From contig NZ_JADOGI010000019.1 in the NCBI RefSeq assembly GCF_015645445.1, forward strand, positions 1 to 64,000: a stretch of 64,000 nt of DNA, written 5' to 3'. Origin of the DNA: Nonomuraea cypriaca. Lineage in GTDB: Bacteria; Actinomycetota; Actinomycetes; Streptosporangiales; Streptosporangiaceae. The notes beneath the pieces were generated by a model that saw only the letters and a program-made list of their open reading frames with translations, was not told the origin of the DNA and ran no database searches. The translations under genes were made by a program, and so were the position numbers. This document shows positions 3,639 to 10,287 of this stretch, in pieces (within the stretch, counting starts at the first letter, position 1; each line of letters opens with the position of its first letter).

Positions 3639-4835
3639 TCACGGAGTAGCGAGAGCCTCCGTCGGTGACATGCGGGCGGCGCGTACCGCTGGGTAGAAGC
3701 CCGCGATGCCGCCGATGGCCAGCGTGGCGAGGACGCCGCCCACCATGGCCCAGACGGGCACGATCGCGGGCCAGCTCTGGATGCCCGCGTACGCGGAGGT
3801 GACGCCGATGCCGAGCAGCACCCCACCGATCCCGCCGATGGCCGACAGCAGCAGCGACTCGGCCAGGAACTGGACGCGGATCTGGCCGCGGGTGGCCCCC
3901 AGCGAGCGGCGCAGCCCGATCTCGGCACGCCGCTCCAGGACCGAGATGACCATGGTGTTGGCCACGCCCACGCCTCCGACCAGCAGTGCGACACCGCCGA
4001 GGCCGAGGAGTAGGGCGTTCAGTGTGGCGTCGGTGGCCTGTTTGGCGGCCAGCACGTCCGACGGTCTGGACACCTCGACCTCGTTGGGGCTCTCGGGGTT
4101 GGCGGTGGCGCCGAGCACGTCGCGTACGTCGGCGACGAACTCCTCCCGCGCCCTGGCGTAGATCGTGGTGGCGTAGCCGTCGAAGCCCAGCCGCTCCGCC
4201 GCGACCGGCCAGCCGACCAGCGCGGCCGTGTCGAGCTCGGGGGCGAGCGGCGCGGGCGCGAGCACCCCGACGACGGTGAACCACTGCTCGCCCAGCCAGA
4301 CCCGCTGGTCCGGACCCGCCTGGACGACGCCGAGCCGGTCGGCCGCCTTGGCGCCGAGCACGGTGGCGGGGTAGCGGTGGGTGGCCTCGTTCAGCCAGAC
4401 GCCGCTGACGACGGTGGCGCCGACGTCCGCGGGCAGGTCGAGCCGGGCGGCGGTGACCGAGACGCTGCCGGTCTCCGCGGCCGGGATGTGGTCGTTGCGG
4501 TAGACGTTGGCGGGGGTCGTGCCGGTCGCGGTGACCGCGGTGACGGGCTCGATCTGGTCGATCATGCCTTCTGACTCGGCGGGCAGGTGCGACGCCTCCC
4601 CGAACAGGTTCTGGCCGGGCGAGACGGTGAGCAGGTTGGTGCCGAGCGCTTCGAGCTGCCGGTTCAGGTTCTCCTGGCTGGAGGCGGAGATGCCGACGAC
4701 GCCGAGCATGGCGGCGATGCCGATGGCGATCCCGAGCGCCGACAGGAACACCCGCAGCGGTCTGGACCGCAGCCCCGAGCCGCCGACCCTGATCACGTCG
4801 CGTGGCCGCATACGGGCCGGGACGAGGACGCTCAT
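3639..4835 (-). CDS. MacB-like ABC transporter permease
   Basis: Permease of the MacB/FtsX type, 398 residues. It has one N-terminal membrane helix ([23 protein letters not shown]), a large extracytoplasmic domain (about 60-270), and three C-terminal helices containing [21 protein letters not shown] and the [24 protein letters not shown] motif that is diagnostic for the family. It is the last gene of the operon that starts at the response regulator. The ATG overlaps the stop of the ATPase gene by 4 bp (4832-4835), so translation is coupled. Probable role: export of an antimicrobial or envelope-active substrate with the adaptor and ATPase. Confidence 0.93.
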
Positions 4836-5500
4836 ACCCGCACCCCGTCCGGCACGACGCGGCCGTCGAGCATCTCGATCTGCCTGGGGAGCGAGGCGGC
4901 GATGTCGCGGTCGTGGGTGATGATGACCACGGTGGTCCCCGCCGCGTTCAGTTCGCGCAGCAGCTCCATCACCCCGGCTCCTGAGCGGGAGTCGAGGTTG
5001 CCCGTCGGCTCGTCGGCCAGCAGCAGTCGCGGGTCGCCGACCACGGCGCGGGCGATGGCGACGCGCTGCCGCTCGCCGCCGGACAGCTCGTGCGGGCGAT
5101 GGCCGAGCCGGTGCCCGAGCCCCACGCGTTCCAGGGCGTCGTACGCCCGGAGGCGCCGTTCGCGCGGGGACGGGCCCGCGTACAGGAGGCCGTCGGCCAC
5201 GTTGTCCAGCACGGGCACGCCGGTGGTGAGGTGGAACTGCTGGAAGACGAAGCCGATGACGTTCGCGCGCAGGGCGGACAGCTGCTTGTCGTTGAGTGAG
5301 AGCACGTCGTGCCCGGCGATGCGTACGGTGCCGCCGGTCGGGCGGTCGAGGGTGCCGATCATGTTGAGCATGGTCGACTTGCCGGACCCCGACGGGCCGA
5401 CGATGCCGACGAGCTCGCCGTGGTCGATGCCCATGGAGACGCCGCGGAGTGCGGCGACGTCGCCGTACTCCTTGCTCACGTCGTGCAATTCCACGATCAC
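4832..5500 (-). CDS. ABC transporter ATP-binding protein (MacB/LolD type)
   Basis: ATPase of 222 residues that powers the MacB-like permease. Walker A is GPSGSGKST (about 36-44), the Q loop is [17 protein letters not shown], the signature is LSGGERQR, Walker B is [14 protein letters not shown], and the switch histidine is in [11 protein letters not shown]. The [18 protein letters not shown] stretch is typical of the LolD/MacB subgroup. Its start overlaps the adaptor stop (5497-5500) and its stop overlaps the permease start (4832-4835). Confidence 0.95.
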
Positions 5501-6591
5501 TTGGGCACCGCCACGGTCATGCCCTCGTTCACGCCCGTGACCTCCACCTTGCCGTCGGCGAACATGCCGGTCTCGACCGCGACGTAGCGGGTGGCGGCGC
5601 CCTCCACGACCTGTACGCCGTAACCGCCCTCGGCGAGGGCGACGAGCGCGCCGACCGGTACGGCCAGGACGTTCTCGCGCTGCTCCGAGACGATCGTGAC
5701 GTCCACGGGCGCGGCGTCGAACGACTTCTTCAGCCCACTCACCGACACCCTGACCTCGACCGTGGTGGCGGTGTCCGTGCCGCTGCCGGTCTCGGTGGCG
5801 ACCTTGCCGACGCCGGCGACCTCGCCCTTCACGGTGCTGCCGTCGGGCAGCTCCACAGTGGCCTTCATGCCCTTCCTGACCAGGTGCTCGTCGGCCACGT
5901 CGAGGTTGACGAGCACCTCGCGGGTGGTGCCTGTGGCGGTGAGCACGGGGCCGCTGCCCGGGTCGCCGAGGGTCTTCTTGAGCTCGGCGACGCGGATGCG
6001 GCCGTCGGCCACCACGACGTCACCGGGCTCGACCCTTCCCGTGACGTCGAGGCCCAGGTCCTCCTGCCAGTCCTCGACCGCCTCCCTGGTGGACCAGGTG
6101 AACGCGTTGTCCACGTCGAAGCCGGTGTAGCCGAGCTTGTCCAGGTTGCGTTCGAGCAGTTCGACGTCCTTGCCCTCGACCCCGTCCTCCAGGGTGCGGT
6201 AGAGGGGGATGGTGCCGTAGAGGAGGGGGCGGCGGTCGGCGTCCACGCTGTAGACGCCGTGGCCCCTGGTGATGGTGGAGCCCTCGCCGGGGAGCCAGGT
6301 GATCGTGCCCTGGGACTTGCCGGCGACCGTCAGCGGGTCGCCGTAGCCGAGGGTGCCGTCCACGGTCTTGGTCGCCGTCAGGGTCGTACGGGTCACCTTG
6401 ACGGTGGCCGGGGGTGTCCGGGTGGCGGCGGCCGTACCTGCGCTGCCGCCGCCGAAGCCCACGGCGGCGGCCGCGACGGCGGCGGCGAGCAGCGCGACCC
6501 CGCCCGTCCAGGCGAGGACGCGCAGCGGGCGGCGGCGACGGGGCGGCAGGGCGCGGAGCGCGCGTTCGTTCTTCTCCTGCACCTGCGTCAC
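5497..6591 (-). CDS. HlyD/MacA-like efflux adaptor with peptidoglycan-binding domain
   Basis: Membrane-anchored adaptor of 364 residues. An N-terminal helix ([24 protein letters not shown]) anchors it. Residues about 140-185 ([20 protein letters not shown], then [17 protein letters not shown]) form a peptidoglycan-binding_1 domain, common in Gram-positive adaptors. The rest is beta-barrel and membrane-proximal domain ([38 protein letters not shown]). The start is GTG at 6591, whose GTGA overlaps the lipoprotein stop; extending upstream would read through the lipoprotein gene in another frame. It probably couples the MacB-like pump to the cell wall. Confidence 0.88.
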
Positions 6592-7109
6592 TTGCCCGTC
6601 CCTCTTCCCAGGGACTTGTTGCAGGCCTGGAGCGCCTTCATGGTCTTGGGATCCTCGCGCGCGATGGTGCCCATGGTGCCGTTGGCGAAGGTGCCGTCGG
6701 GGTTGGGGTCGGGCATGTCCACGCCGTTCTCGCGCATGCACTGCGCGAGATTGCGAAGTTGTTCGACGTTCTGCGGGTTGGCGCGGTCGGCCACCTTGGC
6801 CGGCGCTTCGGCGCGGCAGACCTCGAGTGCCTCCGCGACCTTCTTCTTGTCGACGCCCTCGATCTTGGTCAGGCCGCCGCCGCCCTTGGGGCCCGGATCC
6901 TCCATGGGCACGCCGTTCTCGCGCATGCACGCGGCGAACTTCCTGCCCTGCTCCTCCGGGTCCGCCGTGGTGGTGGACGACGCGCTGGCGGCCGGCTTGG
7001 CGGTGCCGGCGGCGGCTACGGAGGCGACGCCGGTGTCGCCCTGCCGGCTGCCGCAGCCCGCGACCGCGACCGCGGCCATGAGCGCTGTGACGATCAGTGT
7101 CTTTCTCAT
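6588..7109 (-). CDS. Lipoprotein with duplicated CMRENG motifs, coupled to the efflux operon
   Basis: Exported lipoprotein: MRKTLIVT plus a hydrophobic core and the lipobox AVAGC, with the acylated Cys at about residue 19. After a Ser/Thr/Ala-rich linker the mature part contains two related blocks, FAACMRENGVPMEDPGP and LAQCMRENGVDMPDPNP, each followed by a second Cys later (EVCRAEA, QACNKSLG). This suggests an internal duplication with two disulfides. It lies between the sensor kinase and the adaptor and may be a sensing or accessory component. A TTG at 7136 overlapping the kinase stop is an alternative start; the ATG at 7109 gives a compact signal peptide. Confidence 0.8.
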   Translation of the reverse strand: MRKTLIVTALMAAVAVAGCGSRQGDTGVASVAAAGTAKPAASASSTTTADPEEQGRKFAACMRENGVPMEDPGPKGGGGLTKIEGVDKKKVAEALEVCRAEAPAKVADRANPQNVEQLRNLAQCMRENGVDMPDPNPDGTFANGTMGTIAREDPKTMKALQACNKSLGRGTGK

Positions 7110-7132
7110 GCTCCGAATGTGCCGAGCGCTCT

Positions 7133-8542
7133 TCAACGCGGGCTTGGAGCCGCCTGGGAGTCAGGTAGGAGCACGCGGAAGGTCGCGCCCGCACCGGGCG
7201 CTGTGTCCAGCTCGACCCGGCCGCCGTGCGCGCGGACGATCGCCGAGACGATGGCCAGGCCGAGCCCGGCGCCGCCGTCGGCCCTGGACCTGCCCGCGCT
7301 GACCCGGTAGAGCCGGTCGAACAGCCTCGGCACGTGCTCGGGCGGCACTCCGGGACCGGTGTCCGACACCTCCAGCACCCCCATGCCGCCGGACCTGCCC
7401 AGCTTGACGGTGATCGCGGCGTCGGGCGGCGTGTGGCAGAGCGCGTTGCCGACCAGGTTGGCGGCCACCTGGCGCAGACGGGCCTCGTCGCCGACGATGG
7501 AGACGGGCGCGAGCTGGTCGCCGAGGGCGGTCAGCCTGACCTGCCGGTCCGGCACGCGTACGCGGGCGTCGCGGATCGTGTCGGCGGCCACCTCCAGGAG
7601 GTCGACGGGGCGGCGGTCGAGCGGGCGTTCCTCGTCGAGCTGGGCCAGCGTGAGCAGGTCGTTGACGAGCACGCCCATCCTGGCGGCCTCGTCCTCGATC
7701 CTGCGCATCGTCTCGTCGGTGTCGCCGCCGCCTCTTCTGTGCAGCTCGGCGAAGCCGCGGACGGACGTGAGCGGGGTGCGCAGCTCGTGAGAGGCGTCGG
7801 CGAGGAAGCGCCGCATCCTGGCCTCGGAGTCGGTCCTGGCGGCGATCTCGGACTGGAGGCGGTCGAGCATGACGTTCATGGCGCCCGCCAGGCGGCCGGG
7901 CTCGGTGTGCGGGTCGTGTCCCGGCACCCTGCGGGCGAAGTCGCCGCGCGCGATGTGGCCCGCCGTGGCCTCCATCCTGGTCAGGGGGCGCAGGCCGAGG
8001 CGTACGACGGCGGCGGCGGCCAGGCCGAGCAGGAGCAGCACGAACGCGCTGACCGCGACCGCGATGACGATGGCCGAGGTCAGGGTCTGCTCCAGCTCGG
8101 CGAGCGACTGGGCGAACACCCACGTCTCGCCGGTGGACAACTCGACGGCGCGGACCCGCCATGAGTCGCCCGTCGTGCCCGGCACGGTGTAGGGGACGTC
8201 GGTCCTGATGACGTCGATGACCGGGGCGGGCTGGTCCTGCTCGTCGGCGGACTGGTAGCGCAACGTGCCGTCGGCGTCGTAGATCAGCATCCGCTGGATC
8301 GCCGAGATCCGCTTGCCGATCAGGGCTTCCAGGCCGTTGGTGATCGGCTTCGTCCGCAACGCCTGGAAGGTCTTCGCGGAGGTGGCCTTGGAGAACTGCT
8401 GGAGCTGATCGTCCACGCGGTCCATCAGGTTGTCGCGAAGCAGCATGACGCCGACCACGTTGGACAACACGAGCGCGAGCGTGGTGAGGCCGAGGATGGC
8501 CATGACCAGGCGGGTGCGCAGGGTCCAGGTGGCGGGTCTCAT
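7133..8542 (-). CDS. Two-component sensor histidine kinase
   Basis: Membrane sensor kinase of 469 residues. Two membrane helices (about 12-35 and 155-182) flank an extracytoplasmic sensor domain of about 120 residues. A HAMP linker (RPLTRMEATAGHIARGDFAR) follows. The dimerisation domain has DASHELRTPLTSVRGFAEL, with phospho-His at about 252, and the ATPase has N (NLVGNALCHTPPD), G1 (VSDTGPGVP) and G2 (GGAGLGLAIV) boxes. The start ATG at 8542 overlaps the regulator stop by 4 bp. It probably senses envelope stress or the pump substrate and controls its own operon. Confidence 0.94.
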   Translation of the reverse strand: MRPATWTLRTRLVMAILGLTTLALVLSNVVGVMLLRDNLMDRVDDQLQQFSKATSAKTFQALRTKPITNGLEALIGKRISAIQRMLIYDADGTLRYQSADEQDQPAPVIDVIRTDVPYTVPGTTGDSWRVRAVELSTGETWVFAQSLAELEQTLTSAIVIAVAVSAFVLLLLGLAAAAVVRLGLRPLTRMEATAGHIARGDFARRVPGHDPHTEPGRLAGAMNVMLDRLQSEIAARTDSEARMRRFLADASHELRTPLTSVRGFAELHRRGGGDTDETMRRIEDEAARMGVLVNDLLTLAQLDEERPLDRRPVDLLEVAADTIRDARVRVPDRQVRLTALGDQLAPVSIVGDEARLRQVAANLVGNALCHTPPDAAITVKLGRSGGMGVLEVSDTGPGVPPEHVPRLFDRLYRVSAGRSRADGGAGLGLAIVSAIVRAHGGRVELDTAPGAGATFRVLLPDSQAAPSPR

Positions 8543-9216
8543 CGCGGGGTCCTCAGCGTGTAGCCGACGCCGCGTACGGTGTGGATGAGCTGCGGCTCCC
8601 ACTTGTCGATCTTCTTGCGCAGGTAGTAGACGTACGACTCGACGATGCTGGAGTCGCCGTCGAAGTCGTAGCGCCAGACGCTGTCGAGGATCTGTGCCTT
8701 GCTCACCACCCGGCCGGCGTTCGCCAGCAGGTATTCGAGCAGGTTGAACTCGGTGGGCGACAGGTCGACCGGCACCCCCGCCCTGCGCACCTCGTGGGCC
8801 TGCGCGTCCAGCTCCAGGTCGGCGTAGCGCAGGACGTCGTCCTGGGGCTTGGCGCCGCTGCGCCGCAGGATGGCGCGGATGCGCAGCACGACCTCCTCCA
8901 GGCTGAACGGCTTGGCCACGTAATCGTCGGCGCCCAGCGACAGCCCCTGTACGCGGTCCTCGACCCCGTCGCGCGCGGTCAGGAACAGCACGGGAATGCG
9001 CTCACCGAGCCGCCTGGCGACCTCGAATCCGTCGAAGTCCCCCAGCATCACGTCGAGCACCACGATGTCGGGCCTGAACTCCCTGGCGACCGTCACCGCC
9101 TCCGCCCCCGTCTCGGCGGTCCGTACCTCGAACGAGACCAGTCGCAGGGTCTGCGAGAGCAGGGCGCGGATGTTCGGCTCGTCGTCCACGACGAGCACCC
9201 TGGCCGATCTGTCCAT
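8539..9216 (-). CDS. OmpR/PhoB family response regulator
   Basis: Response regulator of 225 residues. The receiver domain has the acidic pair DDE (11-13), the phospho-acceptor Asp at about 55 (IVVLDVMLGD) and the KPFSLEEV lysine region. The C-terminal winged helix contains LSPTEFNLLEYLLANAGRVVSK and ends in HTVRGVGYTLR. It is the first gene of the six-gene operon running down to 3639. It is divergent from the erm leader, with a 90-bp shared region before the leader ORF. Confidence 0.95.
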   Translation of the reverse strand: MDRSARVLVVDDEPNIRALLSQTLRLVSFEVRTAETGAEAVTVAREFRPDIVVLDVMLGDFDGFEVARRLGERIPVLFLTARDGVEDRVQGLSLGADDYVAKPFSLEEVVLRIRAILRRSGAKPQDDVLRYADLELDAQAHEVRRAGVPVDLSPTEFNLLEYLLANAGRVVSKAQILDSVWRYDFDGDSSIVESYVYYLRKKIDKWEPQLIHTVRGVGYTLRTPR

Positions 9217-9268
9217 GGGTAAAGGTGTACCCGAGCCAGCTCAATGCGAGCTCAAAGCGGAAATCGCG

Positions 9269-9298
9269 TTGCCGCGCCGCGAGGCCGCTCCCTACAGT
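9269..9298 (+). promoter_or_regulatory. Candidate erm promoter giving a leaderless leader-peptide transcript
   Basis: TTGCCG (9269-9274) and TACAGT (9293-9298) are separated by 18 bp. The ATG of the short leader ORF is at 9306, 7 nt after the -10, so the predicted start of transcription falls at or next to that ATG. Leaderless transcripts are common in actinomycetes. Confidence 0.5.
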
Positions 9299-9305
9299 GA
9301 CGAGC

Positions 9306-9383
9306 ATGTCATGCATGTTCTGCTGCCAGGTTTTCACGCGCATCCGCCACGGCCGGGCTCTGGCCCGCCCGCGGACGCGATGA
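9306..9383 (+). CDS. Candidate Erm leader peptide (25 residues)
   Basis: Short ORF directly upstream of erm, starting MSCMFCCQVFTRIRHG and ending RPRTR before TGA. The R-I-R at residues 12-14 fits the +x+ motif known to stall macrolide-bound ribosomes, and a second Arg-rich stretch lies at the end. Its last codons overlap the first arm (9371-9378) of a leader hairpin, so a stalled ribosome would change the RNA fold. No strong ribosome binding site precedes it, consistent with leaderless initiation. A competing ORF in another frame begins at 9311. The role is inferred from layout. Confidence 0.5.
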   Translation: MSCMFCCQVFTRIRHGRALARPRTR

Positions 9384-9456
9384 CCTGAGGCGAAGCGTCC
9401 GCGACGCGCGGCCCAGGGCCCTTCGAGACCAGACGATCTCGAGGACCCGGAAGGGC
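9371..9456 (+). promoter_or_regulatory. Translation attenuator hairpins covering the erm ribosome binding site
   Basis: Arm GCGGACGC (9371-9378) pairs perfectly with GCGTCCGC (9395-9402). Downstream, GCCCTTC (9418-9424) pairs perfectly with GAAGGGC (9450-9456), with an inner CGAGA/TCTCG stem (9424-9428 with 9437-9441). The GGAAGGG ribosome binding site of erm (9449-9455) is almost wholly inside the 3' arm. This is the layout of translation attenuation in inducible erm genes: the site is hidden until a ribosome stalls on the leader ORF. Confidence 0.65.
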
Positions 9457-9462
9457 AGTGCT

Positions 9463-10287
9463 GTGGCGCAGAATTTCGCGCACGGAAACTATTCACACAC
9501 CCAGAAGAAGGCCAGGAACGGCGGTGGCGGCCGCACGCCCAGAGATCGGGCGAGGCGCACGTTGTCGCAGAATTTCCTGGTCGACAGGCATGCCGTCGAC
9601 CTCGTGGTGAAGGCCGCCGCGCCGGAAGGGCTCGTGCTCGAGCCCGGCTCCGGCGAAGGCGTGCTCACCTTGGCGCTCGCCGCGGCGGGCGCGCGGGTCG
9701 TCGGCTACGAGATCGATCCACGGCTGGCCGCCCGGCTGGCTTCGCGCACGTCGGGCGATCCGGGGATCGACGTCGTCAGGGGCGACTTCACGGCCGCGCG
9801 GGCCCCGCGCGAGCCGTTCGCCGTCGTGGGGAACATCCCCTACTCCGTCACGTCGAAGATCGTGGACTGGTGCCTGCGGGCGCCGGCCCTGACCTCGGCG
9901 ACGCTGCTGACGCAGCGGGAGTACGCCCGCAAGCGCGCGGGCGACTACGGCCGCTGGAGCCTGGTCACGGTGGAGTCGTGGCCGTGGTTCACCTGGCGGC
10001 TCGGCGACACGATCGGCAGGGACAGCTTCCGGCCGGTCCCCTCCGTCGACTCGGCGATCCTGCGCCTCCAGCGCAGGCCGGAGCCGCTGGTGCGCGGCCG
10101 CCGCTCCTACCAGGAGCTGGTCGAGCTGGGCTTCGGCGGGGTCGGCGGCTCGGTACGGGCCTCGCTGAAGACCCGCTACCAGGGGGTGGACGCCGCGCTG
10201 GAGGCCGCAGGAGTCCCCCGCGACGCCGTCGTGGGGTACGTCCACCCGGACCAGTGGGTCACGTTGTGGGGGCGCCTATGCCCTTGA
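9463..10287 (+). CDS. erm: 23S rRNA (adenine-N6)-methyltransferase, Erm family
   Basis: Adenine N6-methyltransferase of 274 residues, expected to methylate A2058 of 23S rRNA and give macrolide-lincosamide-streptogramin B resistance. Seen: RRTLSQNFLVDRHAVDLVV, the SAM-binding LEPGSGEG (59-66), YEIDPRLAARL, VVRGDFTAA, the catalytic NIPYS (124-128) and LLTQREYARKRAG. The Lys/Arg-rich N-terminal extension with RARRTLSQNFL is usual for actinomycete Erm proteins. KsgA is the other family with these motifs, but the RRTLSQNF start, WPWFTWRLGD and the attenuator favour Erm. The start is GTG at 9463 with GGAAGGG 7 nt upstream. The 3' end overlaps the convergent membrane gene by 29 bp. Confidence 0.9.
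   Translation: MAQNFAHGNYSHTQKKARNGGGGRTPRDRARRTLSQNFLVDRHAVDLVVKAAAPEGLVLEPGSGEGVLTLALAAAGARVVGYEIDPRLAARLASRTSGDPGIDVVRGDFTAARAPREPFAVVGNIPYSVTSKIVDWCLRAPALTSATLLTQREYARKRAGDYGRWSLVTVESWPWFTWRLGDTIGRDSFRPVPSVDSAILRLQRRPEPLVRGRRSYQELVELGFGGVGGSVRASLKTRYQGVDAALEAAGVPRDAVVGYVHPDQWVTLWGRLCP

Follow-up and report, generated by a model that had tools for sequence, protein, structure and literature searches.

A predicted macrolide-inducible switch upstream of an erm gene of Nonomuraea cypriaca, with a conserved leader peptide and leader RNA

The 64,000-nucleotide stretch of Nonomuraea cypriaca DNA analysed here (the window; contig NZ_JADOGI010000019.1, positions 1 to 64,000) carries an erm gene preceded by a short open reading frame (ORF), and in all likelihood the two together form a macrolide-inducible resistance switch. 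Our computations establish that the leader peptide and the leader RNA are conserved among related erm loci, that the promoter has a recurrent geometry, and that a ribosome modelled as stalled on the leader eases the opening of the erm start in a position-specific manner. The whole scheme, in which the codons of the stall site also lock the erm start, is our best present model, and we consider it slightly better than evenly placed to be right. The features on which it is built are collected in Table 1.

Table 1. Features of the erm leader region (positions within the window)
Feature	Position	Strand	Remarks
WblC/WhiB7-type box GAAATC	9260..9265	+	3 bp 5' of the -35; fits GAAAWY (PMC7157823)
-35 element TTGCCG	9269..9274	+	-35-like element in 82/84 loci
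-10 element TACAGT	9293..9298	+	ends 7 nt before leader ATG
Leader (putative sensor) ORF MSCMFCCQVFTRIRHGRALARPRTR	9306..9383	+	25 codons plus stop; homologues at related erm genes
R12-I13-R14 (+x+), predicted macrolide stall site	9339..9347	+	R-x-R conserved; stall-position scan; ErmDL precedent (PMC8298421)
P1 5' strand, predicted anti-start (codons 14-16) CGCCACGGC	9345..9353	+	pairs with 9460-9468
Hairpin A lower stem, 5' arm	9355..9363	+	in RALAR codons; 95.5% of cells paired, 3/9 pairs changed on both sides
Hairpin A upper stem, 5' arm CGCGGACGC	9370..9378	+	over the last leader codons
Hairpin A upper stem, 3' arm GCGTCCGCG	9395..9403	+	exact complement of 9370-9378 in the window
Hairpin A lower stem, 3' arm CCAGGGCCC	9413..9421	+	pairing from alignment
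Alternative stem D (RBS-masking stem of the earlier note)	9418..9456	+	GCCCTTC 9418-9424 : GAAGGGC 9450-9456
Hairpin B	9422..9443	+	TTCGAGA 9422-9428 : TCTCGAG 9437-9443; 92.8% of cells paired, 2/7 pairs changed on both sides
Hairpin C, CCC-GGAA-GGG	9446..9455	+	bears the erm Shine-Dalgarno sequence; 100% of cells paired
P1 3' strand GCTGTGGCG	9460..9468	+	holds the erm GTG start (9463-9465)
erm, 23S rRNA (A2058) methyltransferase	9463..10287	+	GTG start, 274 aa

The erm gene and a conserved leader peptide

Judging from curated family scores, the window's erm gene encodes an Erm-family A2058 methyltransferase, for which MLS-resistance activity is predicted. The product scores above the cut-off both of NCBIfam NF000337 (ErmE/H/O/R; 331.1 bits against 320) and of the broad Erm model NF000499 (237.2 bits against 212), its closest solved chain is 6nvm (E = 2e-80), and a NIPY motif can be read in its sequence. 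An anti-phage role for the methylase was considered and set aside, the matches being of a merely generic methylase type (the top one mad2, at 57.4 bits). Divergently from the erm promoter, the minus strand encodes a response regulator at 8539-9216, a histidine kinase at 7133-8602 and, farther away within 3639-9216, a peptidoglycan-binding-domain protein, an ABC ATPase and a MacB/FtsX-type permease; these may form a MacAB-like exporter.

Upstream of erm lies a 25-codon ORF containing R-I-R, which an earlier note, made from the letters of the stretch and without database searches, had singled out. The peptide, which its author did not recognise, turns out to belong to a conserved family. Our comparison set comprised 110 Erm-matching loci, of which 80 were named, 29 came from family genomes and one was the window's own; they correspond to 90 distinct erm upstream regions, and a homologous leader ORF is present in 86 of the 90. 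The family mostly follows the pattern M..C..F[IMT]R[ILM]R..RALAR-stop, with a length of 17-22 residues in most members, and it spans Nonomuraea, Herbidospora, Spongiactinospora, Acrocarpospora, Microtetraspora, Sphaerimonospora, Nocardia, Rhodococcus, Amycolatopsis, Actinoplanes, Thermoactinospora and Streptomyces loci; in Planomonospora, Planobispora and two of three Streptosporangium loci, a P-x-x-G-R tail replaces RALAR. At codons 12-14 the window's leader carries the known macrolide stall motif R-x-R, and stalling is predicted there.

The four upstream regions in which the leader is absent (L073, L079, L090 and L091), and which lack the RNA element R1 described below as well, belong to second erm copies; judging from contig name prefixes, the same genomes also carry a leader-bearing erm. 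These second copies, which possibly are constitutive or otherwise controlled, come from four Nonomuraea genomes and are 74-80% identical. Counts over 84 loci given hereafter omit two of the 86 regions (L101 and L105), which have an odd start assignment and do carry both the leader and the RNA element.

To gauge constraint on the peptide, we calculated pN/pS over the stretch that begins at codon 2 and ends with the second arginine of R-x-R, using length classes with at least six sequences (69 of the 84 loci). In frame, the three classes, of 22, 10 and 37 sequences, gave ratios of 0.49, 0.78 and 0.62, respectively, and in the two other frames the ratio ranged from 0.91 to 1.07. These values point to a modest constraint on the leader at the protein level, and its translation is predicted.

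Promoter and start of the leader mRNA

The earlier note had also proposed a -35/-10 pair that sets the transcription start at the leader ATG. Both elements are there (GAAATC-GCG-TTGCCG-18-TACAGT, then 7 nt and the ATG at 9306); what supports them is comparison among loci and the WblC consensus, not a sigma-70 scan, since a strict sigma-70 consensus search found no promoter at the leader. A TAnnnT hexamer occupies positions -13 to -8 before the leader ATG in 77 of the 84 loci, the -35-like element stands 16-19 bp upstream of it, an A at -43 (aligned with 9263) is shared by 82 loci and C precedes the ATG in all 84. As published, the WblC motif reads GAAAWY, 3 bp, TKGMNN, 16-19 bp, TANNNT, with most transcription starts 7 or 8 bp past the -10 (PMC7157823), and WhiB7 works via an AT-rich stretch adjoining the -35 (PMC3905903). 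The window's promoter fits the WblC consensus in full, so that the start is placed at C9305 or A9306. Such a start leaves no room for a ribosome binding site (RBS), and the leader ORF should therefore be leaderless; the leader mRNA is probably leaderless, in agreement with the earlier note.

Nine Whib matches were found in the organism's own genome, one of which (L177, G000:C219:1122-1262) has an RGRPRK tail resembling an AT-hook; by eye, we judge it to be a putative WhiB7 orthologue. Contrary to the earlier note, the switch is probably not self-contained, because a promoter of the WhiB7/WblC type makes a second input, from general antibiotic stress, likely.

Leader RNA and the modelled effect of a stalled ribosome

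Judging from sequence comparison, the leader RNA forms a conserved four-way junction composed of helix P1 and hairpins A, B and C. The leader folds more stably than expected (z = -2.66; 1 of 200 shuffles equally stable, for the stretch from 9307, one base past the A of the ATG). In an alignment of 45 of 46 representatives (A1, omitting L112), 92.3% of cells are paired in the junction, against 33-49% when the structure is slid along the alignment, and the covariation score is 0.129 against 0.035-0.060; none of 500 shuffles, which ignore relatedness, scored as high on any of five measures. Double changes are less discriminating: 12 of 39 junction pairs are changed on both sides, no more than in the slid versions (5-14), and the 29 double-change cells, which lie in hairpins A and B, equal the number at a slide of -3. 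Given no structure beforehand, RNAalifold predicted 24 pairs that make up portions of P1 and of hairpins A, B and C, five of them showing double changes; its covariation term contributes just -0.21 of -17.22 kcal/mol. An Rfam search returned no match above the gathering threshold, the one reported (E = 0.35) scoring 17.5 bits where 59 would be required.

Hairpin A contains the perfect stem over the last leader codons reported in the earlier note, which proved to be nine base pairs long instead of eight; across the alignment, six of eight pairs of this upper stem are changed on both sides and 87.5% of its cells are paired. The pairing of hairpin C is uninformative because its sequence is nearly invariant. 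Among the 67 RALAR leaders, the codons of the lower stem are frozen (CGG in 67, GCT in 65, CTG in 67), although GCT makes up just 53 of the 2463 alanine codons of Erm bodies. The GCT at Ala18 (9357-9359) persists even though its last base suits the facing G less well than that of GCC would, and its U may have a role beyond hairpin A.

The main lock on erm seems to be P1, in which stall-site codons would pair with the GTG start. In the 45 sequences, 89.1% of P1 cells are paired, compared with 25-34% when slid by one or two columns and 58-70% when slid by three. Further tests of P1 gave a mixed picture: compared with random synonymous codons, the actual leader codons pair more strongly with the erm start (z averaging -1.83, with p < 0.05 at 40 of the 84 loci), and no stretch of the leader is a better partner of that start than R-x-R in 43 of the 84. 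On the erm side of the helix, codon 2 of the gene reads GCG in 77 of 81 loci, a codon used for 1170 of the 2463 alanines of Erm bodies. R-x-R is followed mostly by His, Arg or Ser and then by Gly or Ser, and because the exchanges between CAC and CGC and between AGC and GGC replace A with G opposite a U, pairing would be kept. In ten loci with unusual erm starts, some apparently mis-assigned, the locus's own leader pairs best in one and poorly in L080, L087 and L094. Taken alone in the 45 sequences, P1 has no pair changed on both sides and no excess over column shuffles, since the erm side hardly varies. The lock is the weakest step of the scheme, argued from complementarity, codon choice and modelled energy, with no covariation.

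We then used nearest-neighbour folding to model how much energy it takes to open the erm initiation region; the loci are related, so the counts are not independent. A ribosome stalled at R-x-R cut the cost in 81 of 84 loci (median from 16.6 to 13.4 kcal/mol), the medians being 15.5 with a ribosome at the leader stop and 16.2 with one stalled at codon 4, and the R-x-R stall was cheaper than the stop state in 71 loci. For the start-codon region alone, the stall helped in 68 of 84 loci and beat the stop state in 60. When the stall position was scanned in 45 representatives, median costs lay at 12.7-13.8 kcal/mol for P-site offsets from -3 to +1 and at 15.1-16.3 for all others; opening was cheapest at offset +1 in 17 of the 45 and at offset 0 in two. 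In the window itself, opening costs 18.6 kcal/mol in the free RNA, 13.9 with the stall and 16.6 with the ribosome at the stop. The bases of the GTG there go from 0-1% unpaired in the free RNA to 17-61% in the stalled state, while the GGG of the Shine-Dalgarno sequence stays largely paired in all three modelled states. Counting against the model, six of nine neighbouring gene starts (5.0-10.5 kcal/mol, within an overall range of 5.0-30.8) open more cheaply than stalled erm, whose cost is near the median of 13.1 for 117 first starts of long ORFs, many of them spurious.

The proposed switch, its rivals and its relatives

Taken together, the model runs as follows. Under ribosome stress, WhiB7/WblC would raise transcription from the leader promoter, and with a start at the leader ATG or one base before it, ribosomes would initiate on the leaderless sensor ORF. 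Without drug, the leader would be translated and released and the mRNA would fold into the four-way junction, with the second codon of the R-x-R pair of arginines and the two codons after it paired to the erm GTG start in P1. With a macrolide, the ribosome would stall, its P site holding the central R-x-R residue by analogy with ErmDL, and would cover the 5' strand of P1 and the foot of hairpin A, so that the stall site would double as an anti-start strand. The erm start would then be free and the Shine-Dalgarno sequence held in a weak hairpin, and Erm would methylate A2058, a modification by which Erm enzymes confer resistance. Stalling, the range of inducers, dependence on WblC and a translational rather than transcriptional readout are predictions of this model.

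A different translational route, close to that of the earlier note, would have the stall change hairpin A so that stem D opens and frees the RBS; we regard it as unlikely. The sequences for it do exist: the 7-bp stem GCCCTTC:GAAGGGC is present and its inner stem is found, as GAGA 9425-9428 : TCTC 9437-9440, in place of the 5-bp one described. Stem D has 86.9% of its cells paired with four outer pairs nearly invariant, and in the window, modelling a ribosome at the leader stop increases the pairing of the RBS. Against this, none of the covariation in the 45 sequences exceeds that of shuffles, the last pair is lost in 26 of the 45, and, from the geometry, a stall at R-x-R would free part of the 5' arm of D from hairpin A and favour D, which is the wrong direction. 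The modelled free RNA also leaves GGAA of the RBS unpaired in a hairpin loop, with GGG paired, and masks the GTG by leader codons 14-16. Transcription attenuation, in which the stalled ribosome would block a leader terminator as for whiB7 and several ARE-ABCF genes, strikes us as quite improbable. It is known in actinobacterial resistance genes (PMC12421871, PMC10727445), ARE-ABCF upstream ORFs often being explained this way (PMC12421871), and TTTT lies within 20 nt 5' of erm in 9 of 84 loci; in the other 75 it is absent, 9200-9520 contains no intrinsic-terminator-like site (a Rho-dependent or U-less terminator may nevertheless exist), and the conserved structure extends into the erm start codon.

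That the leader senses something else, such as a shortage of arginyl-tRNA or another ribosome-targeting drug, is a remote reading. The peptide is indeed rich in arginine (8 of 25 codons) and WblC governs resistance to translation-targeting antibiotics in general (PMC7157823), yet the controlled gene is an A2058-type methylase and the F-x-R-x-R core is shared with the Erm(X) leader, annotated as an erythromycin resistance leader peptide, which has FLRLR. Least credible of all would be the absence of any switch, with the ORF a chance one amid GC-rich folding. In its favour, the window's GC-rich starts are in any case costly to open. Conservation of the peptide and of the junction speaks against chance.

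Among known systems, ErmC and ErmB likewise use a drug-stalled ribosome on the leader to switch mRNA structure, and at ermC the start is exposed by a second rearrangement set off by the stall. Such a second rearrangement is also part of the published ermB model (PMC11264731); the proposed stall in the window would instead remove the locking strand directly. In ErmDL, whose short upstream ORF similarly carries a +x+ motif, both erythromycin and telithromycin stall ribosomes at R-L-R; with telithromycin, Leu7 occupies the P site, the motif is needed for telithromycin and less so for erythromycin, and mRNA refolding is thought to favour the ermD methylase (PMC8298421). The window differs in its peptide and has a WblC-type promoter, a probably leaderless ORF and stall codons predicted to pair with the start. 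The Erm(X) leader of Trueperella plasmid pAP2 (MLISGTAFLRLRSNR; L165, 300-363) shares the F-x-R-L-R motif and ends in SNR, not RALAR; its ATG lies 7 nt past a TATAAT, and it is perhaps leaderless too. Short +x+ upstream ORFs (TRFRRF; AVRDRRA), by eye 7 nt after a -10-like hexamer, also precede Erm(36) of Micrococcus luteus pMEC2 and one Rhodococcus and one Dietzia plasmid erm, and the R1 element was not found in these three regions or at Erm(X). The whiB7/wblC upstream ORF also senses ribosome stress and is, unlike the model favoured here, a transcription attenuator; WblC also raises mRNA of Erm(O) (SCO6089) in S. coelicolor, for which the text of the WblC regulon paper that we drew on mentions no leader (PMC7157823). 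A survey of erm upstream ORFs describes some families and no universal pattern (PMC11264731).

The literature on erm leaders that we searched yielded no account of the RALAR family, nor of stall codons that pair with a start codon. We put forward, tentatively and with a little less than even confidence, that the leader represents a distinct actinobacterial class of drug-sensing mRNA: a WhiB7-induced leaderless (70S-initiated) ORF whose +x+ stall site is both detector and start-codon antisense inside a conserved four-way junction, the stalled ribosome itself being the switch with no RNA rearrangement needed.

A covariance model of the element (R1) has a single match in every one of 54 genus genomes, and a single one in the organism's own genome, by eye at the start of the listed erm in 53 of the 54; in the remaining one (G168), the listed erm lies on another contig. 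Across 396 genomes of the phylum, matches were confined to the own genome and G575, the latter before an erm-like ORF, in a search with strict filters and eight candidates per genome fully scored, which may miss diverged copies. Of 341 genomes of the family, 191 gave an erm match at E <= 1e-50, and among 20 more distant family erm loci (L145-L164), 15 show a short R-x-R/K-variant ORF starting 6-8 nt after TAnnnT, a count uncorrected for chance that falls to 14 if the doubtful L152 (GTG) is dropped; in L151, L153, L155, L156 and L158 there is no such ORF. R1 matched three of the 20 at E <= 0.001, several of these leaders have RRPALD-like tails, those of L147, L163 and L164 are longer (about 290-390 nt, from coordinates), and the set perhaps constitutes a sister class with another RNA. 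Leader DNA in plasmid records came only from Nonomuraea gerenzanensis, an 11.85-Mb record filed as plasmid; the other 40 of 41 plasmid records with an Erm match are below 60% identical. Leaderless +x+ leaders may thus be common among actinobacterial erm genes, with the RALAR junction as one family of them.

Control of erm by a leader peptide is an old principle, and the RALAR family and its layout were not found in the literature we covered. If the model is right, WhiB7 stress transcription and leader-peptide stalling would be joined in one conserved unit, which would precede the erm carried by all 54 genus genomes searched as well as those of Nocardia and Rhodococcus relatives and would be a simpler switch than that of ermC. 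It would also raise the question of whether leaderless, 70S-initiated sensor ORFs respond differently to macrolides, and the RNA model together with the peptide motif could aid the sequence-based prediction of inducible macrolide resistance in actinomycetes.
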